DNA from: a virus
DNA: 31,697 bases
Strand: one strand, 5' to 3'
Virus record (IMG/VR): IMGVR_UViG_3300010354_000025
Span: 1-31,697 of that record
Positions 4,133 through 27,836 of this stretch are shown one piece after another. The position numbers were made by a program, and so were the translations under genes. The notes below the pieces were generated by a model, which was not told the DNA's origin, did no database searches, and saw only the letters and a program-made list of their open reading frames with translations. Within the stretch, counting starts at the first letter, position 1. Every line of letters begins with the position of its first letter.

Positions 4133-5104
4133 TTAGTTAGGAGAACCTGTTCCGTTCCACACACCGATCTGATCCAAGAAAGGTACTTGAACACCAGCTC
4201 TGAATTTAGATCGAACATAGATTACATCGTCATCTTGAGAGTAGAACAAATCGTAGTTATCGAAGTCAGAAGTCAAGTCAGTTCCGAAAACAAAGTGAGA
4301 TGCTTTACCAGTGTAGATGTTATCCAATCCGTTAAGACCAGGAACTTTTACTACTCGCATATCAGTACCAGGTACGATTACCTCATCCATAGTAGCGATA
4401 TCAGATGGAGAATAATGGAAGAAATTATCATCTACCAAGTTTTTCATCAAGAAGTTGAAATTCTCACGACCTGTAAAACAGATGAAGTCAGCAGACTCAG
4501 CAACAGCTTCAGGAGTATTCATGAAACACTCATAGAATACATCGTATGCGTTAGTAGCAGAGATTGAAGCAGTAGAAGAAGTGTTAAGATCAACACATCC
4601 GTTAGCAACAGTCAAGAACTGACGATATCCGTTCATCCATTGCATATTACCTGTACCTGTAACTTTGTTACCTTTCCAAATCAATTTGTCAAGCTCCAAA
4701 GAATGAAGTTGAAGAATGTAGTTAGTGATCTGAGCTTCGAAAGGAAGAGTCTTATCTTCAGCAGATGCGCCTGGTCTAAGAGCTAACTGAGTCCAGAAGC
4801 CATCCAAGTCTTTCTGACAAAAACGCTTCATGTAACCCAACGTCTCAACAGCGATAGCACGATCTGTGAAGACTGTATCTCCTGATGGAGTCATCTCGCA
4901 GTCACCTGCTTGATATACTAATGAATCATCAAGAAGTTTGATCTCTTGCGATCCTTTGATACCTTCTTGGATGGAGATGTAACGAAGTGTTTTAGCTTCA
5001 GTTACCGCACGAGTGATTAGGTCTTCTCTTTGCTCATCTACATAAGCAGCGAGTCCTGATACATCGTAGTCGAATTTTGATTTGATGAATTTTTTAAGTG
5101 ACAT
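4133..5104 (-). CDS. Major capsid protein
   Basis: The 323-residue product has the layout of an HK97-fold capsid protein of Bacteroidota phages: a short basic N-terminal arm (MSLKKFIKSKFDYD), an N-terminal helical part, a long central segment, and a C-terminal strand motif DDVIYVRSKFRAGVQVPF typical of these capsid proteins. It assembles the icosahedral head. It follows a protease gene and a scaffold-like gene, the normal order of head assembly genes, and it is followed by a perfect terminator hairpin. The start at 5104 is one base downstream of the scaffold-like stop. The capsid call rests on motif memory and context. Confidence 0.8.
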   Translation of the reverse strand: MSLKKFIKSKFDYDVSGLAAYVDEQREDLITRAVTEAKTLRYISIQEGIKGSQEIKLLDDSLVYQAGDCEMTPSGDTVFTDRAIAVETLGYMKRFCQKDLDGFWTQLALRPGASAEDKTLPFEAQITNYILQLHSLELDKLIWKGNKVTGTGNMQWMNGYRQFLTVANGCVDLNTSSTASISATNAYDVFYECFMNTPEAVAESADFICFTGRENFNFLMKNLVDDNFFHYSPSDIATMDEVIVPGTDMRVVKVPGLNGLDNIYTGKASHFVFGTDLTSDFDNYDLFYSQDDDVIYVRSKFRAGVQVPFLDQIGVWNGTGSPN

Positions 5105-5105
5105 C

Positions 5106-5834
5106 TTATTTATTTATTTGAGATTTTAAAAATACTTGTCGAGCTGTCAGGTTGCTCGTAACCCTTGAGAATTTCTCTCCTTCAGTTGTGCTGTTAGATG
5201 GTGCAGCCTTGAATGCTTCGAAATCATTTTTTATTGCACTCATCTCTGTGCGAAGTGATTCATTATCGTTTACGATAGTCTGCAACATTTCTCCTAAGCC
5301 TTCGATTACTTTAGAGAATGATTCCATCTTCGCATTCACGATAGATTCAACTTGCTCAGCACTCATGCTTTCTGCGCTTAACTCTTCAGTGTTGATAGCT
5401 GCGATTACTGCCGTAGCAATATCGTATGCTTGTCCCATTTCGATGTTAAGTATAGAAGCGATAACTTCTGTTGCCTTTTCCAAAGCAGCAGGAATTTCTT
5501 CTGAATCAATAGCTTCGAATGATGATGCTGCCTCAGTAGAAGTAGCTCTCTCATCAATGATCTCCACTACCATTCCATTGGCATCTGTGATGATGCTCAT
5601 CCCCTCGTATTCACCTCCAAGAGCGTGAGTGCCTTCAGGTGCAGGAATCTGCTCCCCATCAGCTACCACATACACCTGAGTGCCTACTGCGAGATCGCCT
5701 TCGTATGCAATGGCAGTACCATCCATCAATACTCCCTCTCCGAATGTAGTCTCTACGACTTCCTCAGTATTAGAAGAGAATAAAGATTTCATATCTGCTA
5801 TTGCATCCATTACTTTCTTGAAATTGTCATTCAT
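5106..5834 (-). CDS. Scaffold-like head assembly protein (242 aa)
   Basis: The acidic 242-residue protein has an N-terminal helix, then a lipoyl/biotin-domain-like beta module (residues about 30-90, with YEGDLAVGTQVYV and ADGEQIPAPEGTH), then a long acidic helical region likely to form coiled coil, ending in a basic tail. Proteins with this beta module followed by coiled coil lie between the protease and capsid genes in many Bacteroidota phages and are taken as scaffolds that shape the prohead and are cut by the protease. Only the arrangement is visible here; no cleavage site can be assigned. Confidence 0.65.
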   Translation of the reverse strand: MNDNFKKVMDAIADMKSLFSSNTEEVVETTFGEGVLMDGTAIAYEGDLAVGTQVYVVADGEQIPAPEGTHALGGEYEGMSIITDANGMVVEIIDERATSTEAASSFEAIDSEEIPAALEKATEVIASILNIEMGQAYDIATAVIAAINTEELSAESMSAEQVESIVNAKMESFSKVIEGLGEMLQTIVNDNESLRTEMSAIKNDFEAFKAAPSNSTTEGEKFSRVTSNLTARQVFLKSQINK

Positions 5835-5836
5835 GA

Positions 5837-6466
5837 TTACTTATTTATTTTATTATGTTTACTTGTTCTAATTGTGGAACTAAGATCAGTCAAAGCATTC
5901 AATATTTGGCTCATCATCTCAGTTTCAAGAGTGCGATTAGTCTCAGATAGATAGAATGATCCCTCAATACTGAATCCACTCCATTCGCCTGACTTAGCCT
6001 TCTCCCATACATCGTCATTCATAACCTTATAGCTCACAATCCATGATCCATCGTTCACATCATGAAATCGCTCTGGCTTAGAGAATCCTTTCTCTTCATC
6101 CACTTGATAGGAATGAATCATGTATATGCCATCTACCACCTTAGATGAATTATGCTCAAGATTCACGTTATTGAAGTTTGACCTTCTTGCATAGTCAACT
6201 ATGATATTCTTGATAGCATCCTTAGTGAATACTACATAGTACTCCTCATTGCTCTGCTCATCGTATCGATATATCGGAGTATCCGCAGAGATAGCTACCC
6301 CTGTAATTACTCTCTCTTCCTCATTGAACTGATAACGCTTAGCCTTGCTGAATGTCTGATAGCTTATTTCGTGAGCAGGATCAGATACAAGGCTATTGAA
6401 TTCAACAGTTGTATCTTCCTCATTGAGATCAATGTATATCTCGTAAATAGGTAATTCACGCTTCAT
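5837..6466 (-). CDS. XkdF-like prohead serine protease
   Basis: The 209-residue product contains segments typical of the XkdF/peptidase S78-type prohead protease: VITGVAISADTPIYRYDE at residues 53-70, NLEHNS with a candidate catalytic His105, WIVSYKVMNDDVWEKAKSG at 142-160, and GFSIEGSF with candidate Ser166. Such enzymes cut the scaffold and capsid N-terminus during head maturation. The gene stands first in the head module, two bases before the scaffold-like gene. Its start is only about 25 bases from the start of the divergent plus-strand gene, so a promoter for one must overlap the coding region of the other. Confidence 0.8.
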   Translation of the reverse strand: MKRELPIYEIYIDLNEEDTTVEFNSLVSDPAHEISYQTFSKAKRYQFNEEERVITGVAISADTPIYRYDEQSNEEYYVVFTKDAIKNIIVDYARRSNFNNVNLEHNSSKVVDGIYMIHSYQVDEEKGFSKPERFHDVNDGSWIVSYKVMNDDVWEKAKSGEWSGFSIEGSFYLSETNRTLETEMMSQILNALTDLSSTIRTSKHNKINK

Positions 6467-6491
6467 ATATTTTATTATGTATTTTTGTTCT

Positions 6492-7148
6492 ATGAAGTAC
6501 GTTTATCCATATAGAAAAGGCTCTCAGAATTTTGATGTATTACATCATTCAGTCCAATGGCTTAAATGCTTTGATCCCGAAGCTGAAGTTTATATCATAG
6601 GAGACCTTCATCCTGATGGATATTCAATACCAATTCAAACTCTACCAATTCGAGGATGCGATGTTACAAACAAAATACTTCATTTTGCAAGAATTTACTC
6701 AGGTACATTTTGCTATATGAATGATGATTTCTTTATTGGCAAGAACTTCCGCTTTGATAGAATACTTCACAGCAATGAGATGGAGATCAATCCGAAATAT
6801 GCTCCGACATATCAAGAAGCTATGCAGAACACTATTGACTTCTTGAAATCAAATGGGAAGACAACATTTAACTATGAATGTCATCAACCTGTACTTATGG
6901 ATTCTGATAAGCTCCTTGCTCTCTTCGATACTATCACATGGAAACAGCACAATCACTTTATCAAATCAATGTATCTGAATTACTATGGATGCTATCATGT
7001 ACAAGGTGAGAATCTAAAGGTAGCAAATGACATCCGTAAAGCATCTGAATTCATCACTAAATATGGATCATTCAGCACAGGAGATACTTGGTTTAATCAG
7101 AAAGCTCAGCGAGAATTTATTACCAAACGCTTAGCTTATTCTGTGTAG
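6492..7148 (+). CDS. Stealth-like sugar-phosphotransferase / glycosyltransferase
   Basis: This is the only gene on the plus strand. From the ATG at 6492 (MKYVYPYRKG) it encodes 218 residues; an ATG at 6477 would add five. The order of motifs fits Stealth proteins (hexose-1-phosphoryltransferases of capsule synthesis): an N-terminal strand and helix, EVYIIGD, then CYMNDDFFIGK with a paired aspartate as in Stealth region CR2, then YECHQPVLMDSDKL as in CR3. It is shorter than most family members, as are related phage copies. It overlaps the end of the tape-measure gene tail to tail by 29 nt and diverges from the protease gene. It probably alters a surface sugar, of host or virion, and behaves like a moron gene. 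A TATTTTTG box at 6480-6487 lies five bases before the ATG, which could mean leaderless transcription; no -33 box is visible. Confidence 0.65.
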   Translation: MKYVYPYRKGSQNFDVLHHSVQWLKCFDPEAEVYIIGDLHPDGYSIPIQTLPIRGCDVTNKILHFARIYSGTFCYMNDDFFIGKNFRFDRILHSNEMEINPKYAPTYQEAMQNTIDFLKSNGKTTFNYECHQPVLMDSDKLLALFDTITWKQHNHFIKSMYLNYYGCYHVQGENLKVANDIRKASEFITKYGSFSTGDTWFNQKAQREFITKRLAYSV

Positions 7149-9513
7149 CTACCTTATTCTGAGTACCTGTAATATCACTCTCTAAGACATAAACTGTTGT
7201 CATGCCTTCATTCGTCTGAGATACAAGTCCTGCTGTGCTTGTACTCTGTCCGAAGTTATTCATGTTCATTCCTGCTGATCCTAACTCCGATCCTGTTGCA
7301 CCTGCGCTGAATCCAGTTCCTGCTGCCCCCATAGATGGAGCAGTACCTCCTTGATATTTAGTAGCTGTGATAGCTGCTATCTGTGCAAGTCCAATACCCA
7401 CCGCAGCAGCGATACCTGCTATACCCGCAGGTGATGGAGGAGGACCAAACATAGCGATGGCTTTAGCAATAGCACTCGCAGTATCAATACCAACTTGAGC
7501 AATCCTTAAAGCCTTGTCTCTGTTGAATTGTTGTTTCTTTATCTTCTCAGTCTCATTGAATAGCTTTAATTCTGTTGCATATTTTGTCGCTGCATATTGC
7601 TTATCTAAAGCATCCTTTTGTTCAGCAGATAGATTGCCTTGCTCTAATTCTGTCTTATATTTAGCATCAAGTACTTTTAATTCGTCTTGAGTTTGCATCT
7701 CAAGAGCTTGAAGTCTTGCATTCTGTAAGTCATCAATAGCAGCATTGAAAGATGATATTTGATCCTTGATATATTGAGCAGTCTCAATGGCTCTATTCAA
7801 CCTTTCAGCTTGTAAATCCTGAGACATCTTAGCATATTTCTGCTCAATAGCATATATCTCTCCTTCTGTCAATTCTTTATTTGATAATTCCTGTGCTTTC
7901 TGAGAATCTAATAGTGCTTGTCTTGCTTCCCAATTTTTATCGTCTTGAATTATCTGCCCTTGTAAATATCCTTGAGCATCCCTGAATTCTTTATCTCTCA
8001 ATCTCTCAATGAATGCAGCTTCTCTTTCTAAAAGTTGCTGTTTACTCATTGTGCCTTGAGCAATTATTTCTAATTCATTAGATACTCTAATACGTTGTAA
8101 TTTCAATATTTCTAACGAACCTATTTCTATCGCTTTCTTTTCTTTATCTGCATTTTTTACAGCATTCTCTGTGTACTTTGTATTTCCATCGCTTAGAGTG
8201 AAAATATCAGTACTTGCTTTCAATGCTGACTTTCCATAGTTCTCTAATCGAGTAGTAGCTTTTGATAGTTCTAATTCATTTTCCTTAATTCTTTTATTTA
8301 CCTTTTCATATTCAATAGCTAATTGCTCATTAGCATATCCCAAGCCAGTAGATACTCTTACTCCAAATTCATCCGTTTCATAAGTCTGCTTTCTCTTTAA
8401 TGCTCCTTCTTTTACTAACTGATTCAATCTTAATTCATCTTGAGCAAGTTGCTGTTTGAGTTTAGATTGCTTTCTAAGATTAGCCACTATCAACTCCTCA
8501 CTTGATTGTAACTGAAACTTGGCAGTTTGATAAGCGAGATAGTTTTGTAATTCCTTATTCAACTGATTCTGAAATGCAGCCTCATCAGATAGATTCTTTA
8601 ATGTAGTTCCGTATTTCTTATTGATCTCAGATATCAGTCTTGATCTTTCTTTACTCCCTTCGTTACTGGCTTGAAGTTGCACTATCATTGTAGCAAATGC
8701 AGCAGATTCCTTAGATACGAAATCCATCCTCTTTGCTTCATTCTTGGCTCTCTGATCAGCTAACTTCTGCTCCTCTTCACTTACACCTGTGACCATTTCT
8801 TTCAATGCTCCAAAATTGGCGATCAAAGCAGTAATTCCCACAATCACAGCTCCGATACCTGTACCTAACAAAGCAAGTCTAAATAGCTTCAATGCGCCTG
8901 TGGACTCTCCGACAGCAACAGTATATAATTTCTCCCATGCAGTTCTTATCTGAATACCTAATATCGCATCAGAATTGAGATTATTAGCAACAGTTGTAAC
9001 GGCATTGACTACACCTTGTACAGCTTGTAGCTTTACCATCGTCTGCACTAATGCCTCACTCTCTACGCCTGTCAGAGCAATAGCTGATTCAAAGCCTTGG
9101 AAGATCGCTGCTCCTGTTTCGACTCCTGCAAGAGTAGTATCTAACTTAACAAAGTCAGATGAGAGTGCTGTAGTAGCAGCTTTCAAATCTCCTATCTGAT
9201 CCTTTAGCTGACCTGCTGCCTGAATAGCAGCCTGTCCAACAGGAGATTCCATTCCTGCCTGTGCAGCAATCGTTTGATACTGCTTCATGGTCTGAGTCAG
9301 CTCACGCATCGTAAGACCACCAGACTCAACTTTCTGATTAAGCTCCTTTAACTTCTGATCAAACGCATCAATACCCTTTCCCGATGCAGCAGTACTCTGC
9401 ACATCCTTGATGTCCTTATTCAGATCGCTTACAGCCTTATCAAAATTCTGAACATCTTGTACAGAATTTCCTGTATCAACTCTGAGTGAAAATACTGCTT
9501 CCTTAGTTGCCAT
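7120..9513 (-). CDS. Tail tape-measure protein
   Basis: The 797-residue protein is built of long charged helical stretches (residues about 1-150 and 240-690), interrupted by hydrophobic segments near residues 210-235 (LLGTGIGAVIVGITALIANFG) and 700-725 (PAGIAGIAAAVGIGLAQI), with a glycine- and serine-rich C-terminus. This is the classic design of a tape measure, which fixes tail length and is released during DNA entry. At the usual 0.15 nm per residue it would predict a tail of about 120 nm (inference). It starts at the stop of the fibre gene upstream, and its last 29 nt overlap the convergent plus-strand gene. Confidence 0.85.
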   Translation of the reverse strand: MATKEAVFSLRVDTGNSVQDVQNFDKAVSDLNKDIKDVQSTAASGKGIDAFDQKLKELNQKVESGGLTMRELTQTMKQYQTIAAQAGMESPVGQAAIQAAGQLKDQIGDLKAATTALSSDFVKLDTTLAGVETGAAIFQGFESAIALTGVESEALVQTMVKLQAVQGVVNAVTTVANNLNSDAILGIQIRTAWEKLYTVAVGESTGALKLFRLALLGTGIGAVIVGITALIANFGALKEMVTGVSEEEQKLADQRAKNEAKRMDFVSKESAAFATMIVQLQASNEGSKERSRLISEINKKYGTTLKNLSDEAAFQNQLNKELQNYLAYQTAKFQLQSSEELIVANLRKQSKLKQQLAQDELRLNQLVKEGALKRKQTYETDEFGVRVSTGLGYANEQLAIEYEKVNKRIKENELELSKATTRLENYGKSALKASTDIFTLSDGNTKYTENAVKNADKEKKAIEIGSLEILKLQRIRVSNELEIIAQGTMSKQQLLEREAAFIERLRDKEFRDAQGYLQGQIIQDDKNWEARQALLDSQKAQELSNKELTEGEIYAIEQKYAKMSQDLQAERLNRAIETAQYIKDQISSFNAAIDDLQNARLQALEMQTQDELKVLDAKYKTELEQGNLSAEQKDALDKQYAATKYATELKLFNETEKIKKQQFNRDKALRIAQVGIDTASAIAKAIAMFGPPPSPAGIAGIAAAVGIGLAQIAAITATKYQGGTAPSMGAAGTGFSAGATGSELGSAGMNMNNFGQSTSTAGLVSQTNEGMTTVYVLESDITGTQNKVATQNKLSVW

Positions 9514-17150: not shown

Positions 17151-17177
17151 ATTATTATTATTATTATTATTATTATT
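17151..17177. repeat. ATT trinucleotide microsatellite, nine copies
   Basis: Nine tandem ATT units cover the end of the HAD-like gene, including its stop codon, and the gap before terS. Loss or gain of units would not shift the HAD frame before its stop but would change the distance to the terS start. Such a repeat may vary in length in a population. Confidence 0.95.
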
Positions 17178-17466
17178 TAAATAATACACCTACATTACCT
17201 AATTCTTTTATCACCTCAGGATTATTATCGTAGTGTTTATCTATGTTCAGTTGTTTTATTTTTTCGACTTTGGCTTTGTTTGATCCTGTGGCATATACTC
17301 TGCTCAGTAGGATTCCGACTTGTTCTGCTTTGTCGAGCATTCCTGATCTGCGTGACCTTGCAGAGACGATGTATACCTGATCACCTTTCTCAACGTATCT
17401 TTGTGCCAATTCAGTTCCTTTGGCAGTAGAGATAGTTCCGTCATAGTCAAAAGATATCTTAGCCAT
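17173..17466 (-). CDS. Small HAD-superfamily phosphatase-like protein (97 aa)
   Basis: The start at 17466 (MAKISFDYDGTIS) overlaps the end of the upstream gene by eight bases; a longer frame up to 17562 is an artefact of the overlap. All four HAD motifs are present in this very short protein: DYDGT (nucleophile Asp7, acid Asp9), IVSAR (Ser35), a lysine at about 64-66, and HYDNNP (Asp80). There is no cap domain. HAD enzymes of this type remove phosphate from small molecules or nucleic acid ends. It lies in the same run as sugar-modifying genes, so a sugar phosphate is one possible substrate, but similar mini-HAD genes next to terminase genes occur in other phages without such a cassette. Confidence 0.75.
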   Translation of the reverse strand: MAKISFDYDGTISTAKGTELAQRYVEKGDQVYIVSARSRRSGMLDKAEQVGILLSRVYATGSNKAKVEKIKQLNIDKHYDNNPEVIKELGNVGVLFK

Positions 17467-17911
17467 TGATGAAATCATTGATCTTCGACTTAGCCCATTC
17501 TTTGGCAGCTTTACCTCCCCATAGTAAATATGAGATGTATCCGCAATCTTCTGGAGTACCATTGTCGTAATACACTTCAGCTCTTGACAGGTAGTTGTAC
17601 ATCCGTTTAATCGTTTCTATTGAAATCTTCTCTCTGTTGGCAAGTTGCTGCGCTCTGACCTTTCCTACTTGAGTAGCGCATTTGTTGCCTTGCTTGTCGT
17701 TTAGTTCTATCCCTCGCTTGGCATTGTTAACTACCGCATCAGGATAGTCATTATATGAATCTTGGAACTCTTGCTTGGCACGTTCCCACGATGCCTTGCA
17801 TACAGGATAGCGTTGTGTCGATGGATATTCGTCTTTCATCTTCTCATCACCCATACATCGTTGTATGAATTCGTTTTCGTTTTCTCCCGATCTTGGTTTA
17901 GGTATTGGCAT
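17459..17911 (-). CDS. KCATQVGK-domain protein of unknown function (150 aa)
   Basis: The start is the ATG at 17911 (MPIPKPRSGENENEF), which shares a base with the TGA of the upstream gene; a GTG one codon earlier is also possible. Two modules are visible. Residues 1-47 (PKPRSGENENEFIQRCMGDE ... YPVCKASWE) form a small motif often found at the ends of phage portal and head-protease proteins. Residues 55-145 hold KCATQVGKVRAQQLANRE, TIKRMYNYLSRA and CGYISYLLWGGKAAKEW, a helical domain that I know from prohead-protease fusions and small phage proteins. Here it stands alone, next to the HAD gene and away from the protease. Its role is not known; a head or packaging accessory is possible. Confidence 0.7.
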   Translation of the reverse strand: MPIPKPRSGENENEFIQRCMGDEKMKDEYPSTQRYPVCKASWERAKQEFQDSYNDYPDAVVNNAKRGIELNDKQGNKCATQVGKVRAQQLANREKISIETIKRMYNYLSRAEVYYDNGTPEDCGYISYLLWGGKAAKEWAKSKINDFING

Positions 17912-18978
17912 CACTTACAATATTTAACGTAAAAAGTATAAGGTACTACATTCATCTTGGCAAGTATCCATATCAGAGCTCTGTATCTCTTGAATGAATA
18001 CTTAGCGTATTTTGATCTGTCATTCTTTCTGATATTGACAAGAGACATAGTCTTGTTTTCTATATCTCCGAGTTTAGATAGATCGAATTCTGACTTGACA
18101 TCGAATATCTTTCTTGCTTGTTTCTTGGTCAGCTTTCCTGATCTCACTTGAGCAGATAGATAAACGATACGTTTGTCGATGCCAAACTTAGTAGGTAATA
18201 GCCATGAGCCAACGAATTCTGTATAGACATTCTCACAATGCTTACCCCCATAATCTTGCCACTTGATGAGCTTCTTCATCTCTTGCTCCATAGTCTCTCT
18301 GTCGAATCCGTAATGGAATGGTCTGATGTTCTTGATGCCTTTGAAAGCGTAGTATATCTGATCCCAGAATGTGAATAGAGGATAGTTCTTCAGCTCTTTG
18401 CCTGTGTAATCTTTATAGACCGATTGAATGTATTTAGCATCCATATAAGTCCATCCTTTTGGAGTTGATCCTTCAGTACGGAAGTCATGACCATTGAGAA
18501 TATATTTGATGCCATACTGATGAGCAGTATCGTACATGAGTTTGGTCATAGCGATGTCATTCGGGATATCGGCATCAGGAACTCCTGCGTACAGGAATGA
18601 TTCATTGAGCTTATCATACTCCTGCTTGTTCACTCGATATATGATCGCATCTACTCCAAGAGTATTGATAAGTCCATTCATATTGTGAACAGCTTCTGGA
18701 GCATTCCAGTTGTTATCGAAATGGATGACTAATGGCTTCAATCCCCAATATCTCACAGCAGTATAGAGTAGTGTTGAGCTGTCAAGACCTCCACTGATCC
18801 CCATGATGCAGTCATACTTGCTATGAGTACCTGCTTTGCGAATCTTATGCAGCACAGAGTTAAGATCGAATGGTACTGCTTTAGCTTGTAGCTCATCATG
18901 TAGATCGCAGTATTCACATTGCTTCTCTGATATCTTAGCTATGTCCTCTGTAAAGAGACATCTTGGACATTCTTTCAT
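17911..18978 (-). CDS. N-acetyl sugar amidotransferase (WbpG/WbuX-type)
   Basis: The 355-residue product is a full-length member of the PP-loop ATPase family that amidates N-acetyl sugars of O-antigen and capsule. It has zinc-type cysteines at the N-terminus (C4, C7, C21, C24), the PP loop SGGLDSS (62-68), PDADIPNDIA (134-143), NGHDFRTEG (162-170), GWTYMDAKYI (175-184) and the diagnostic C-terminal run FGIDKRIVYLSAQVRSGKL. In bacteria it acts with a HisH/HisF-like glutaminase that supplies ammonia; no such partner is in this genome, so the host's would be needed. Start and stop overlap both neighbours by a few bases (ATGA with the methyltransferase). Such a gene in a small phage points to transfer from a host polysaccharide locus. 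Confidence 0.88.
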   Translation of the reverse strand: MKECPRCLFTEDIAKISEKQCEYCDLHDELQAKAVPFDLNSVLHKIRKAGTHSKYDCIMGISGGLDSSTLLYTAVRYWGLKPLVIHFDNNWNAPEAVHNMNGLINTLGVDAIIYRVNKQEYDKLNESFLYAGVPDADIPNDIAMTKLMYDTAHQYGIKYILNGHDFRTEGSTPKGWTYMDAKYIQSVYKDYTGKELKNYPLFTFWDQIYYAFKGIKNIRPFHYGFDRETMEQEMKKLIKWQDYGGKHCENVYTEFVGSWLLPTKFGIDKRIVYLSAQVRSGKLTKKQARKIFDVKSEFDLSKLGDIENKTMSLVNIRKNDRSKYAKYSFKRYRALIWILAKMNVVPYTFYVKYCK

Positions 18979-19514
18979 GATAGAATAATTTGAAAATAAT
19001 ACTCATTTGTTTGTATCCTTTGGATGTCATACTGTATGAAGTCCTCAGGTCTTATGTTACACCATATATGCTCAGGATCGCAATCCTCTGGCTCATCTAA
19101 TGGCATAGACAGCACAAGGTATTTACAATGCTTTAAGCATCTGTCAATCACATCGAATGGATTCTCCAAATGCTCTAATGTCTCAGCGATGATGATCACA
19201 TCATAGTCATCTGTTGGATCATCTGTACGAATGTCGAGAAGTTTGATATGATCTGCCTTAGATACTGCTTTGTTCAGAGCTATGATAGAGAAGTCTGAAG
19301 CTGTGTACTCGCAATCGAATTTCATCTTGAGATACTCAGCTCCTACACCTGTGCCACATCCGATCTCAAGGATAGTTTTGAATTCAATGTGCTTGAGTAT
19401 GTCTGCGAGTTGTTCATAGATTATGAGCCTGTCATATTCTATGCCCACACAATCGTAGTAGTTATCCCAAAAGTAAACGCTGTTGGTATTTGGTTTATCT
19501 GTTATCCTTCGCAT
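18975..19514 (-). CDS. Class I SAM-dependent methyltransferase (179 aa)
   Basis: The product has motif I ILEIGCGTGVG (48-58), an acidic residue after strand two (TASDFS, Asp74), DIRTDDP near 94-100 and the motif IV-like YDVIIIAETLEHL (104-116), followed by LVLSMPLDEP. This is the fold of small-molecule or sugar methyltransferases of the type found in polysaccharide loci (Methyltransf_11/23). The substrate cannot be read from sequence. It overlaps the glycosyltransferase by 13 nt and the amidotransferase by 4 nt, so the three should be made together. A DNA methyltransferase is unlikely since no NPPY/DPPY or PC motif is present. Confidence 0.8.
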   Translation of the reverse strand: MRRITDKPNTNSVYFWDNYYDCVGIEYDRLIIYEQLADILKHIEFKTILEIGCGTGVGAEYLKMKFDCEYTASDFSIIALNKAVSKADHIKLLDIRTDDPTDDYDVIIIAETLEHLENPFDVIDRCLKHCKYLVLSMPLDEPEDCDPEHIWCNIRPEDFIQYDIQRIQTNEYYFQIILS

Positions 19515-20230
19515 ATCTCTTGTTGTAAAGTATATATTTCGGGGAATGACTTGAAGAAATCATCCTCTGCTTTGTTTCCGAGTTTCTCTGATTGACCTCT
19601 CAATGATCCTGACCAATGATCTGCAAACTTATGCTTGTTATCCCATACATGAGTTGAGATGCTCAGTAGCTTTAGTTCAGGATCATCAAAGATTCCTATC
19701 TGTGCATCCATAGCTAATAACTTGAGCCACATGGACCAATCGAGTCCTGAGTTGAGTCTCTTGTCAAATGGCTGCCAATTCATCTTATTTAATGCTCTTG
19801 ATGACAATACTCTTCCAATACCTATTGGCTCGTATGATCGTTGTCCTTTGCCGTATCCGAACCAATTGACAGTTCTGATGTTGGTCTTTCCTATATCTGT
19901 GAAGTGACATCCGAGCTTTCCTACCATATCGTATTGTGATAGCATATTCTCTGCCTCTTGGATGTAGTTATCAGACACCCAATCGGATGACCCAACGAAT
20001 AGCACTCCATCAGGATTGTATTTCTTTGCTGCCATGAATCCTGCATTCCATTTAGTACCTAATGGATCGTTGGATATTGTTACCCATTCCACACCAAGTG
20101 ATTTTGCTATCTGCTCATCTCCTTTATCATGCCCCATACAGATGACAGTAACACCTGCATTCTGAAGCCTTGTGATAGTATGCTTCAATAATGGTCTACG
20201 ACCATATACAGGAATGGGAGCTACAATCAT
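19502..20230 (-). CDS. GT2-like glycosyltransferase (242 aa)
   Basis: The protein begins MIVAPIPVYGRRPLLKHTI, the first strand and helix of a GT-A fold family 2 glycosyltransferase. Further signs are the nucleotide-side segment GTKWNAGFMAAKK (58-70), the metal-binding region VLFVGSSDWVSD (76-87) in the place of the DxD motif, and RLNSGLDWSMWLKLL with an acidic residue that could be the base. No membrane segment is present, so it would act in the cytoplasm on an activated sugar. The canonical DxD is not exact, so the donor is uncertain. First gene of the overlapping sugar cassette; it overlaps the SAP-like gene by four bases (ATGA). Confidence 0.72.
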   Translation of the reverse strand: MIVAPIPVYGRRPLLKHTITRLQNAGVTVICMGHDKGDEQIAKSLGVEWVTISNDPLGTKWNAGFMAAKKYNPDGVLFVGSSDWVSDNYIQEAENMLSQYDMVGKLGCHFTDIGKTNIRTVNWFGYGKGQRSYEPIGIGRVLSSRALNKMNWQPFDKRLNSGLDWSMWLKLLAMDAQIGIFDDPELKLLSISTHVWDNKHKFADHWSGSLRGQSEKLGNKAEDDFFKSFPEIYTLQQEICEG

Positions 20231-27167: not shown

Positions 27168-27836
27168 TTATAAGTAATCAAAAATTGATATTTGTTTTTC
27201 GTCTTGTTTTTTAATTATTCCTAATGCGGTTTCAAGTATTGTTTTACCTATTTCATAATCTACGAGGTTACGAGCAATTTTAGCAAGTGGTTGAGAACCT
27301 TTATACTTTCTAAAATCATAATCGTGAAATTCAGAAAGCCTATTAACCTCATCATTTCCTTGACATACTCCAGCTTTTCTTGTTTCAATATTAGTATTAA
27401 TTATAAAATTAGTCCAATATAAATGCCTATCTATTTCAATACCATTTATTAATGGCTCATAGTATGGTATTACATTCTCAACCACATATTTTCCGTCAAA
27501 ATGATGCTTTAAAAAAATAATTTCTTCATATAAAGATAAATCAGGAAAAATAGGACTTTTCCCATTTCTACCGTGTCCCCAAAATCTTGCACGGCTATGG
27601 CTTGGACAAGGTGGGCTACTCCATATAAAATCGAAATCTTTATAATGATCAAGTAAGAATTGGTGAGCATCCGTAACTATTACGTTATCATTTGGAAATC
27701 TTTCCTGGTATAATCTTGCAAGTTCTTCATCCAATTCCACGGCAGTTACTTCTATTTGTATACCTGCTTCTTCAGCAACCTCATCCCATTTGTATCGATT
27801 GCCTCCTAAACAAGAATATAAATTTAATATCTTCAT
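27168..27836 (-). CDS. Compact DNA cytosine-5 methyltransferase
   Basis: The 222-residue product has motif I-like LNLYSCLGGNRYKW (4-17), an acidic VELDEELA for SAM, the catalytic SPPCPSHSRARFW (cysteine in the PC motif), YVVENVIPYYEP with the ENV motif, and a C-terminal motif X-like QPLAKIARNLVDY. The usual QxRxR motif is replaced by DRHLYWTN, and there is no room for a large target recognition domain, so it is shorter than the normal 300-400 residues. It may protect phage DNA from host restriction or methylate a short site. It lies next to the DnaA-like gene and could also mark the origin. Confidence 0.78.
   Translation of the reverse strand: MKILNLYSCLGGNRYKWDEVAEEAGIQIEVTAVELDEELARLYQERFPNDNVIVTDAHQFLLDHYKDFDFIWSSPPCPSHSRARFWGHGRNGKSPIFPDLSLYEEIIFLKHHFDGKYVVENVIPYYEPLINGIEIDRHLYWTNFIINTNIETRKAGVCQGNDEVNRLSEFHDYDFRKYKGSQPLAKIARNLVDYEIGKTILETALGIIKKQDEKQISIFDYL

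Follow-up and report, generated by a model that had tools for sequence, protein, structure and literature searches.

The gene at 6492–7148 and its neighbours

The window, by which is meant the whole stretch of 31,697 nucleotides of viral DNA that was analysed, is a contig, both ends of which interrupt a gene. The features with which this analysis is concerned are the following.

4133–5104, minus strand: putative major capsid protein, so named from its position and used as the bait for relatives
5837–6466, minus strand: head maturation protease (Peptidase_S78_2, XkdF-like, E 4e-12), the divergent neighbour
6476–6490, plus strand: conserved predicted promoter element TATGTATTTTTGTTC, which holds the Bacteroidota -7 box TATTTTTG at 6480–6487
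6492–7148, plus strand: gene for a Stealth-like, putative sugar-phosphate transferase of 218 aa, with NDD at residues 77–79, the probable catalytic His131, and Lys158 in the likely place of the CR3 Arg
7120–7148, both strands: 29 nt tail-to-tail overlap between the Stealth-like gene and the minus-strand 797-aa ORF
7120–9513, minus strand: putative tape-measure gene of 797 aa, the convergent neighbour

The CDS at 6492–7148 is the sole convincing plus-strand gene in the window, all of the other sizeable genes being on the minus strand. An earlier note on this DNA had called it the only plus-strand gene of the genome, which holds for the contig and is limited to it, because of these interrupted ends. 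Of the longer rival plus-strand ORFs, those for which relatives allowed a comparison (4187–4567, 5152–5628, and shorter ones) overlap minus-strand genes and mostly have in-frame stops in relatives, whereas the reading frame at 6492–7148 stays open. Coding on the opposite strand within the gene was considered and rejected, as the minus-strand ORFs there are only 35–38 aa or less. With hundreds of viral relatives and a dN/dS (omega) of 0.07–0.19 between close pairs, the ORF is, on these comparisons, far from a chance occurrence.

The ATG of the Stealth-like gene and the protease start codon, at 6466, are 26 nt apart. At the other end, the tail-to-tail overlap is as the earlier note had it and measures 29 nt, while the identity of the overlapping ORF as the tape measure is an assignment from its position, length, and coiled-coil-like sequence, for which profile searches of the 797-aa ORF gave no support. 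No named profile was found for the putative capsid protein either.

The plus-strand ORF contains two candidate starts, with the first ATG giving 6477–7148 and the second 6492–7148. In the relatives at loci L015–L025, the upstream ATG meets a stop codon immediately (ATGTAATTTTGTTTCATGAG), for which reason a start at 6477 was rejected. The stretch between the two ATGs is instead a conserved, noncoding promoter element. The stop in the relatives and the position of this element together indicate that the true start is at 6492, as the earlier note had it.

Distribution and inheritance

A search with the Stealth-like protein identified 31 viral relatives, and at least 345 were identified using their alignment. 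With the capsid protein as bait, relatives are sampled independently of the Stealth-like gene itself. In the first such sample, of 80 loci, the gene is present in all 60 that reach the site, the other 20 contigs ending before it, and in a second, more distant sample it is present in 52 of 52 informative loci, with 22 more ending short. In all of these 112 informative contigs, which include near-identical ones and are not 112 independent events, the gene is in the same place, adjoining the protease and antisense to its neighbours. Indeed, it was never found on the strand of its neighbours in relatives, an arrangement that the earlier note had named as one that would count against its reading. 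The sampled capsids range down to about 70% identity to that of the window and, at this depth, the Stealth-like gene is a core gene under purifying selection.

The GC content of the gene is 0.355, against 0.362–0.417 in its neighbours, and its GC3 is 0.315, against 0.199–0.431. Across 92 unique loci and the window, the mean amino-acid distance is 0.49 for the Stealth-like protein, 0.33 for the protease, and 0.22 for the capsid, the comparison with the capsid being a crude one. The rank correlation of these distances between the gene and each neighbour is 0.46–0.66, and that of the neighbours among themselves is 0.36–0.63. By these measures the gene behaves as an old, fast-changing resident rather than a recent arrival. 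A cellular origin was also sought; apart from proteins of this phage type, the profile matched only bacterial-genome proteins that are distantly Stealth-like, so that no cellular donor was identified.

Among 50,697 named phage records, neither the gene nor the capsid protein has a homologue, yet the lineage is represented by hundreds of metagenomic contigs. The terminase has many phage matches, all of them distant, and the nearest named portal, at 21% identity, is that of the Nonlabens phages P12024S/L. No integrase or repressor was recognised among the proteins searched. A Shine-Dalgarno-like motif is present in 1 of 25 genes; such motifs are nearly absent in the Bacteroidota too and, with the Nonlabens portal also considered, the host is probably a member of this group.

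A conserved predicted promoter 5' of the gene

In the window the -7 box ends 4 nt before the ATG. In the 50 distinct upstream sequences with this standard spacing, the element TATGTA-nn-TTTGTT at -16 to -3 from the ATG is virtually invariant: T-12 A-11, T-8 T-7 T-6, and G-5 do not vary, -10 and -9 do, TATG precedes the box with one exception (at -14), and TT follows it. When spacing is relaxed, TAnnTTTG lies within 25 nt of the ATG in 62 of 64 distinct upstream sequences, compared with 0.9% of random 25 nt windows. The full motif occurs a single time in the window, at 6476, and among 280 loci it occurs once in 181 and twice in 2.

The two exceptions among the 64 are L082/L084 and L115, which keep the -7 box beside the protease. 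In L082/L084 the motif remains there and a short plus-strand ORF lies between it and the Stealth-like gene; in L115 the box (TAAGTTTG) is likewise separated from the gene by a short plus-strand ORF. The layout would suit the insertion of a gene just after the promoter. The additional ORF in L115 (~2035–2350) encodes about 100 aa, and its counterpart in L082/L084 encodes a short hydrophobic protein.

The mapped promoters of F. johnsoniae have T-12 A-11 T-8 T-7 T-6 G-5 relative to the transcription start (PMC6847099). As the same letters lie at the same distance from the ATG of the Stealth-like gene, transcription is predicted to start on the A of the ATG, where the 5' end of the mRNA would thus be found. 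Leaderless messages make up only 5.5% of the mRNAs of F. psychrophilum (PMC9723704). The phage element is like the sigma-A promoters of the Bacteroidota (TTTG / TAnnTTTG) in the sequence of the -7 box and in its spacing of 4–5 nt to the start, and differs from them in having the predicted start on the ATG itself and extra conserved flanks, TATG- and -TT. The gene therefore appears, from the conservation of these letters, to have a leaderless message read by the host sigma factor and separate from the late genes. Both the promoter element and the predicted leaderless start are new in this analysis. E. coli-type sigma-70 promoters are in no excess over shuffled sequence, and a simple pattern scan showed no terminator for the Stealth-like gene.

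Relationship to the Stealth family

The earlier note had proposed a Stealth-like protein on sequence alone. Conventional profile searches bear this out only in part, as the sole Pfam match of the window protein is to Stealth_CR2 and is weak (E 0.0095; 16.6 bits against a cut-off of 39.4 bits). Among 37 members, 19 match Stealth_CR2 below the cut-off, the best with an E of 0.0021, and none matches Stealth CR1, CR3, or CR4. The gene has no NCBIfam match, and a sequence search of the PDB, with a profile query included, gave no significant match.

It is the predicted structure and the comparison of profiles with profiles that connect the protein to Stealth. The AlphaFold2 model (pLDDT 93.5, pTM 0.90) has as its top Foldseek matches in the PDB CpsY (8j2n, E 3e-7) and GNPTAB (7s6n, E 1.2e-6). 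In VIA-align the GNPTAB and CpsY entries listed all have a Z of 14.7–16.7, the next family reaching 9.6, and giant-virus proteins named 'Stealth' are among the best matches in a viral structure library. The fold is confirmed by the model as Stealth/GT-A-like, where a prediction without such similarity had been put forward earlier as a reason to abandon the idea.

The window protein matches phrog_7999, a family of 'unknown function', with an E of 5e-12. Four compact proteins from bacterial MAGs match this same family at ~1e-31 to 1e-50 and Stealth_CR2 at ~1e-6 to 1e-8. Comparison of the profiles aligns the phage clade with the compact set over the full length (probability 99.7%, E 1.4e-26), the compact set with canonical Stealth (97.6%, E 3.6e-12), and the phage clade with canonical Stealth directly (93.7%, E 1.8e-7). 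The Stealth-like identity proposed earlier is thus upheld by the fold match and by the links through phrog_7999.

With the Stealth family (GNPTAB, M. tuberculosis CpsY, and capsule polymerases) the phage protein shares a GT-A-like catalytic core and the order of its regions, with a VYP-type first strand at CR1, NDD ending CR2, and His-x-Pro at CR3. Unlike these proteins it is of only 218 aa, almost without spacers, and is encoded by a core gene of a phage lineage. In the collection of papers that was searched, nothing relevant on Stealth proteins in phages was found.

A tblastn search with two of the compact proteins identified homologues in phages of Mycobacterium, Gordonia, Microbacterium, and Streptomyces, annotated as hypothetical among the matches listed. 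The phrog_7999 proteins of these phages are of the same compact size as the window protein and homologous over the full length but, unlike it, they keep a CR3-like Arg and more of CR2 (LRYSLRS). Their genes are on the strand of all of their neighbours in two of three phages inspected, and the third is within a same-strand run. The 'hypothetical proteins' gp6 of Fionnbharth and gp170 of Gaia (Mycobacterium phages) and gp22 of TurkishDelight (Streptomyces phage), at L204, L205, and L206, align over their full length with the compact Stealth-like set. For phrog_7999, so far annotated as of unknown function and nothing more, the link suggests sugar-phosphate transfer by a Stealth fold as a function, and it extends this hypothesis to the mycobacteriophages, where testing is easy.

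Catalytic residues

In the human PTase the key residues are Arg322, NDD at 406–408, His956 as the base, Arg986, and Asn1151, and in CpsY they are Glu305, Asn322, Asp324, and Arg419; R419K is dead in CpsY, and the activity of R986K in the human enzyme is diminished or dead (PMC11418123, PMC10668966). The counterparts in the window protein of the catalytic NDD of the human PTase and of its His956 are, by alignment, NDD (77–79) and His131 (PMC11418123), and His131 is also aligned with the CR3 His of canonical Stealth members. His131, Asn77, and Asp79 are, with many other residues, invariant in the 37-member alignment. NDD is found in 124 of 131 distinct proteins, partial copies included. In one sub-lineage (L030 7998–8645 and related loci) it is replaced by NKD, in which the last Asp is kept.

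Other parts of the active site differ. Where the compact set has an invariant Arg, the phage clade has Lys158, likewise invariant, although the alignment with canonical members is ambiguous here by about 3 residues. The metal-binding Asn of CR4 (CLND/CIND) is absent, with FSTxD at that place, and the donor-sugar Glu is not kept, the position being that of Asn60 or Lys61. By motif, membership of the Stealth family is therefore incomplete, with part of the chemistry probably shared, and these three changes mean that activity, or phosphotransfer over plain glycosyl transfer, is not assured. The probable natural change of Arg to Lys, a substitution that inactivates known Stealth enzymes when made at this site, makes the protein a test of mechanism.

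Proposed role of the gene

The explanation that best covers all of these observations, and which is given an even chance of being right as a whole, is that of a core, vertically inherited Stealth-type enzyme with its own promoter that decorates a host surface glycan. The protein would be a minimal and divergent Stealth enzyme, in which a GT-A-like fold binds a nucleotide-sugar through the NDD motif and a metal and the conserved His acts as the base, so that sugar-1-phosphate is moved onto a sugar hydroxyl. The gene would be its own transcription unit, with a promoter for the host housekeeping sigma factor giving a leaderless mRNA from the ATG, so that the enzyme could be made upon entry of the phage DNA, ahead of the late minus-strand operon and without depending on it. 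Later read-through of that operon would cover the gene with antisense RNA. Such an enzyme would most likely serve to decorate host surface glycans during infection, for instance to mask receptors from further phages. From sequence and model we infer promoter activity, transcription start, and timing, as well as catalytic activity, donor, acceptor, and purpose, the best reading being the transfer of sugar-1-phosphate onto a host surface glycan, which is favoured as acceptor in view of the gene's separation from the late genes. Against this purpose, conservation in every member exceeds what is usual for a superinfection gene.

The gene is non-structural, has its own host-type promoter, is on the opposite strand, and has been kept in every sampled member of the lineage, which would suggest that a sugar step at the surface or on the virion may be indispensable there.

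The main rival is modification of the virion, by addition of a phospho-sugar to the phage's own capsid or tail glycoprotein. Actinophages use glycosyltransferases of their own to modify their capsids and tail tubes, and glycosylation of the virion is documented in mycobacteriophages (PMC12363180). All sampled members of the lineage have the gene, always between head and tail genes, and in TurkishDelight its homologue is flanked by the genes for the major tail protein and the head-to-tail adaptor, with an annotated glycosyltransferase close by; this conservation and neighbourhood keep the alternative a serious one. It is nonetheless rather unlikely, since the gene is set apart from the late structural genes by its strand and its own host-type promoter, and the divergence of the protein is about double that of the capsid.

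A more elaborate form of the host-glycan reading would make the opposite-strand slot a switch that is on early and off late, driven by a leaderless host-sigma promoter, through which a Lys-for-Arg Stealth enzyme would remodel a host surface glycan directly on entry until late read-through from the structural operon silenced it by antisense RNA. This is put forward tentatively and is unlikely to hold in full. The same doubt attaches to its further suggestion that the promoter slot has taken up additional small genes in at least two lineages.

It is improbable that the Stealth fold is catalytically dead or repurposed, for example as a protein that binds a glycan or nucleotide-sugar and so blocks a host enzyme. 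The Lys at the probable CR3 Arg site, the loss of the CR4 Asn and of the donor Glu, and the NKD of one sub-lineage would fit such a protein, but the invariance of His131, Asn77, Asp79, and many other residues, under strong purifying selection, argues against it.

Least probable by far is the earlier proposal of a moron, recently gained by horizontal transfer and accessory to the phage, since, for all its resemblance to phage morons and lysogenic-conversion surface genes in standing alone on the opposite strand at a module joint and in having a promoter to itself and probable glycan chemistry, the gene is not sporadic, with no case of absence in the 112 informative capsid-sampled contigs, and its GC, GC3, and distance correlations are like those of its neighbours.

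The amidotransferase cassette and other loci

A cassette at 17911–20230 encodes a WbuX-like N-acetyl sugar amidotransferase, a SAM methyltransferase, and an unidentified protein of 242 aa. The assignment of the amidotransferase (17911–18978) is from a WbuX-like match with an E of 1.9e-50 that is below the cut-off. Of 16 long relatives, 11 have it, and searches did not find it in the other 5, all of which keep the Stealth-like gene; the two are therefore not obligate partners.

In many of the more distant relatives (e.g. L026, L029, L145–L155, and L157), homologues of 17173–17562 and/or 17459–17914 are flanked by a scaffold-like gene and the S78 protease, while the copies in the window are at 17.2–17.9 kb, an apparent relocation of the genes at 17173–17914. 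The ORF at 27168–27836, which matches only the first ~80 residues of the C-5 cytosine DNA methylase profile (PF00145), is possibly a truncated or split gene.
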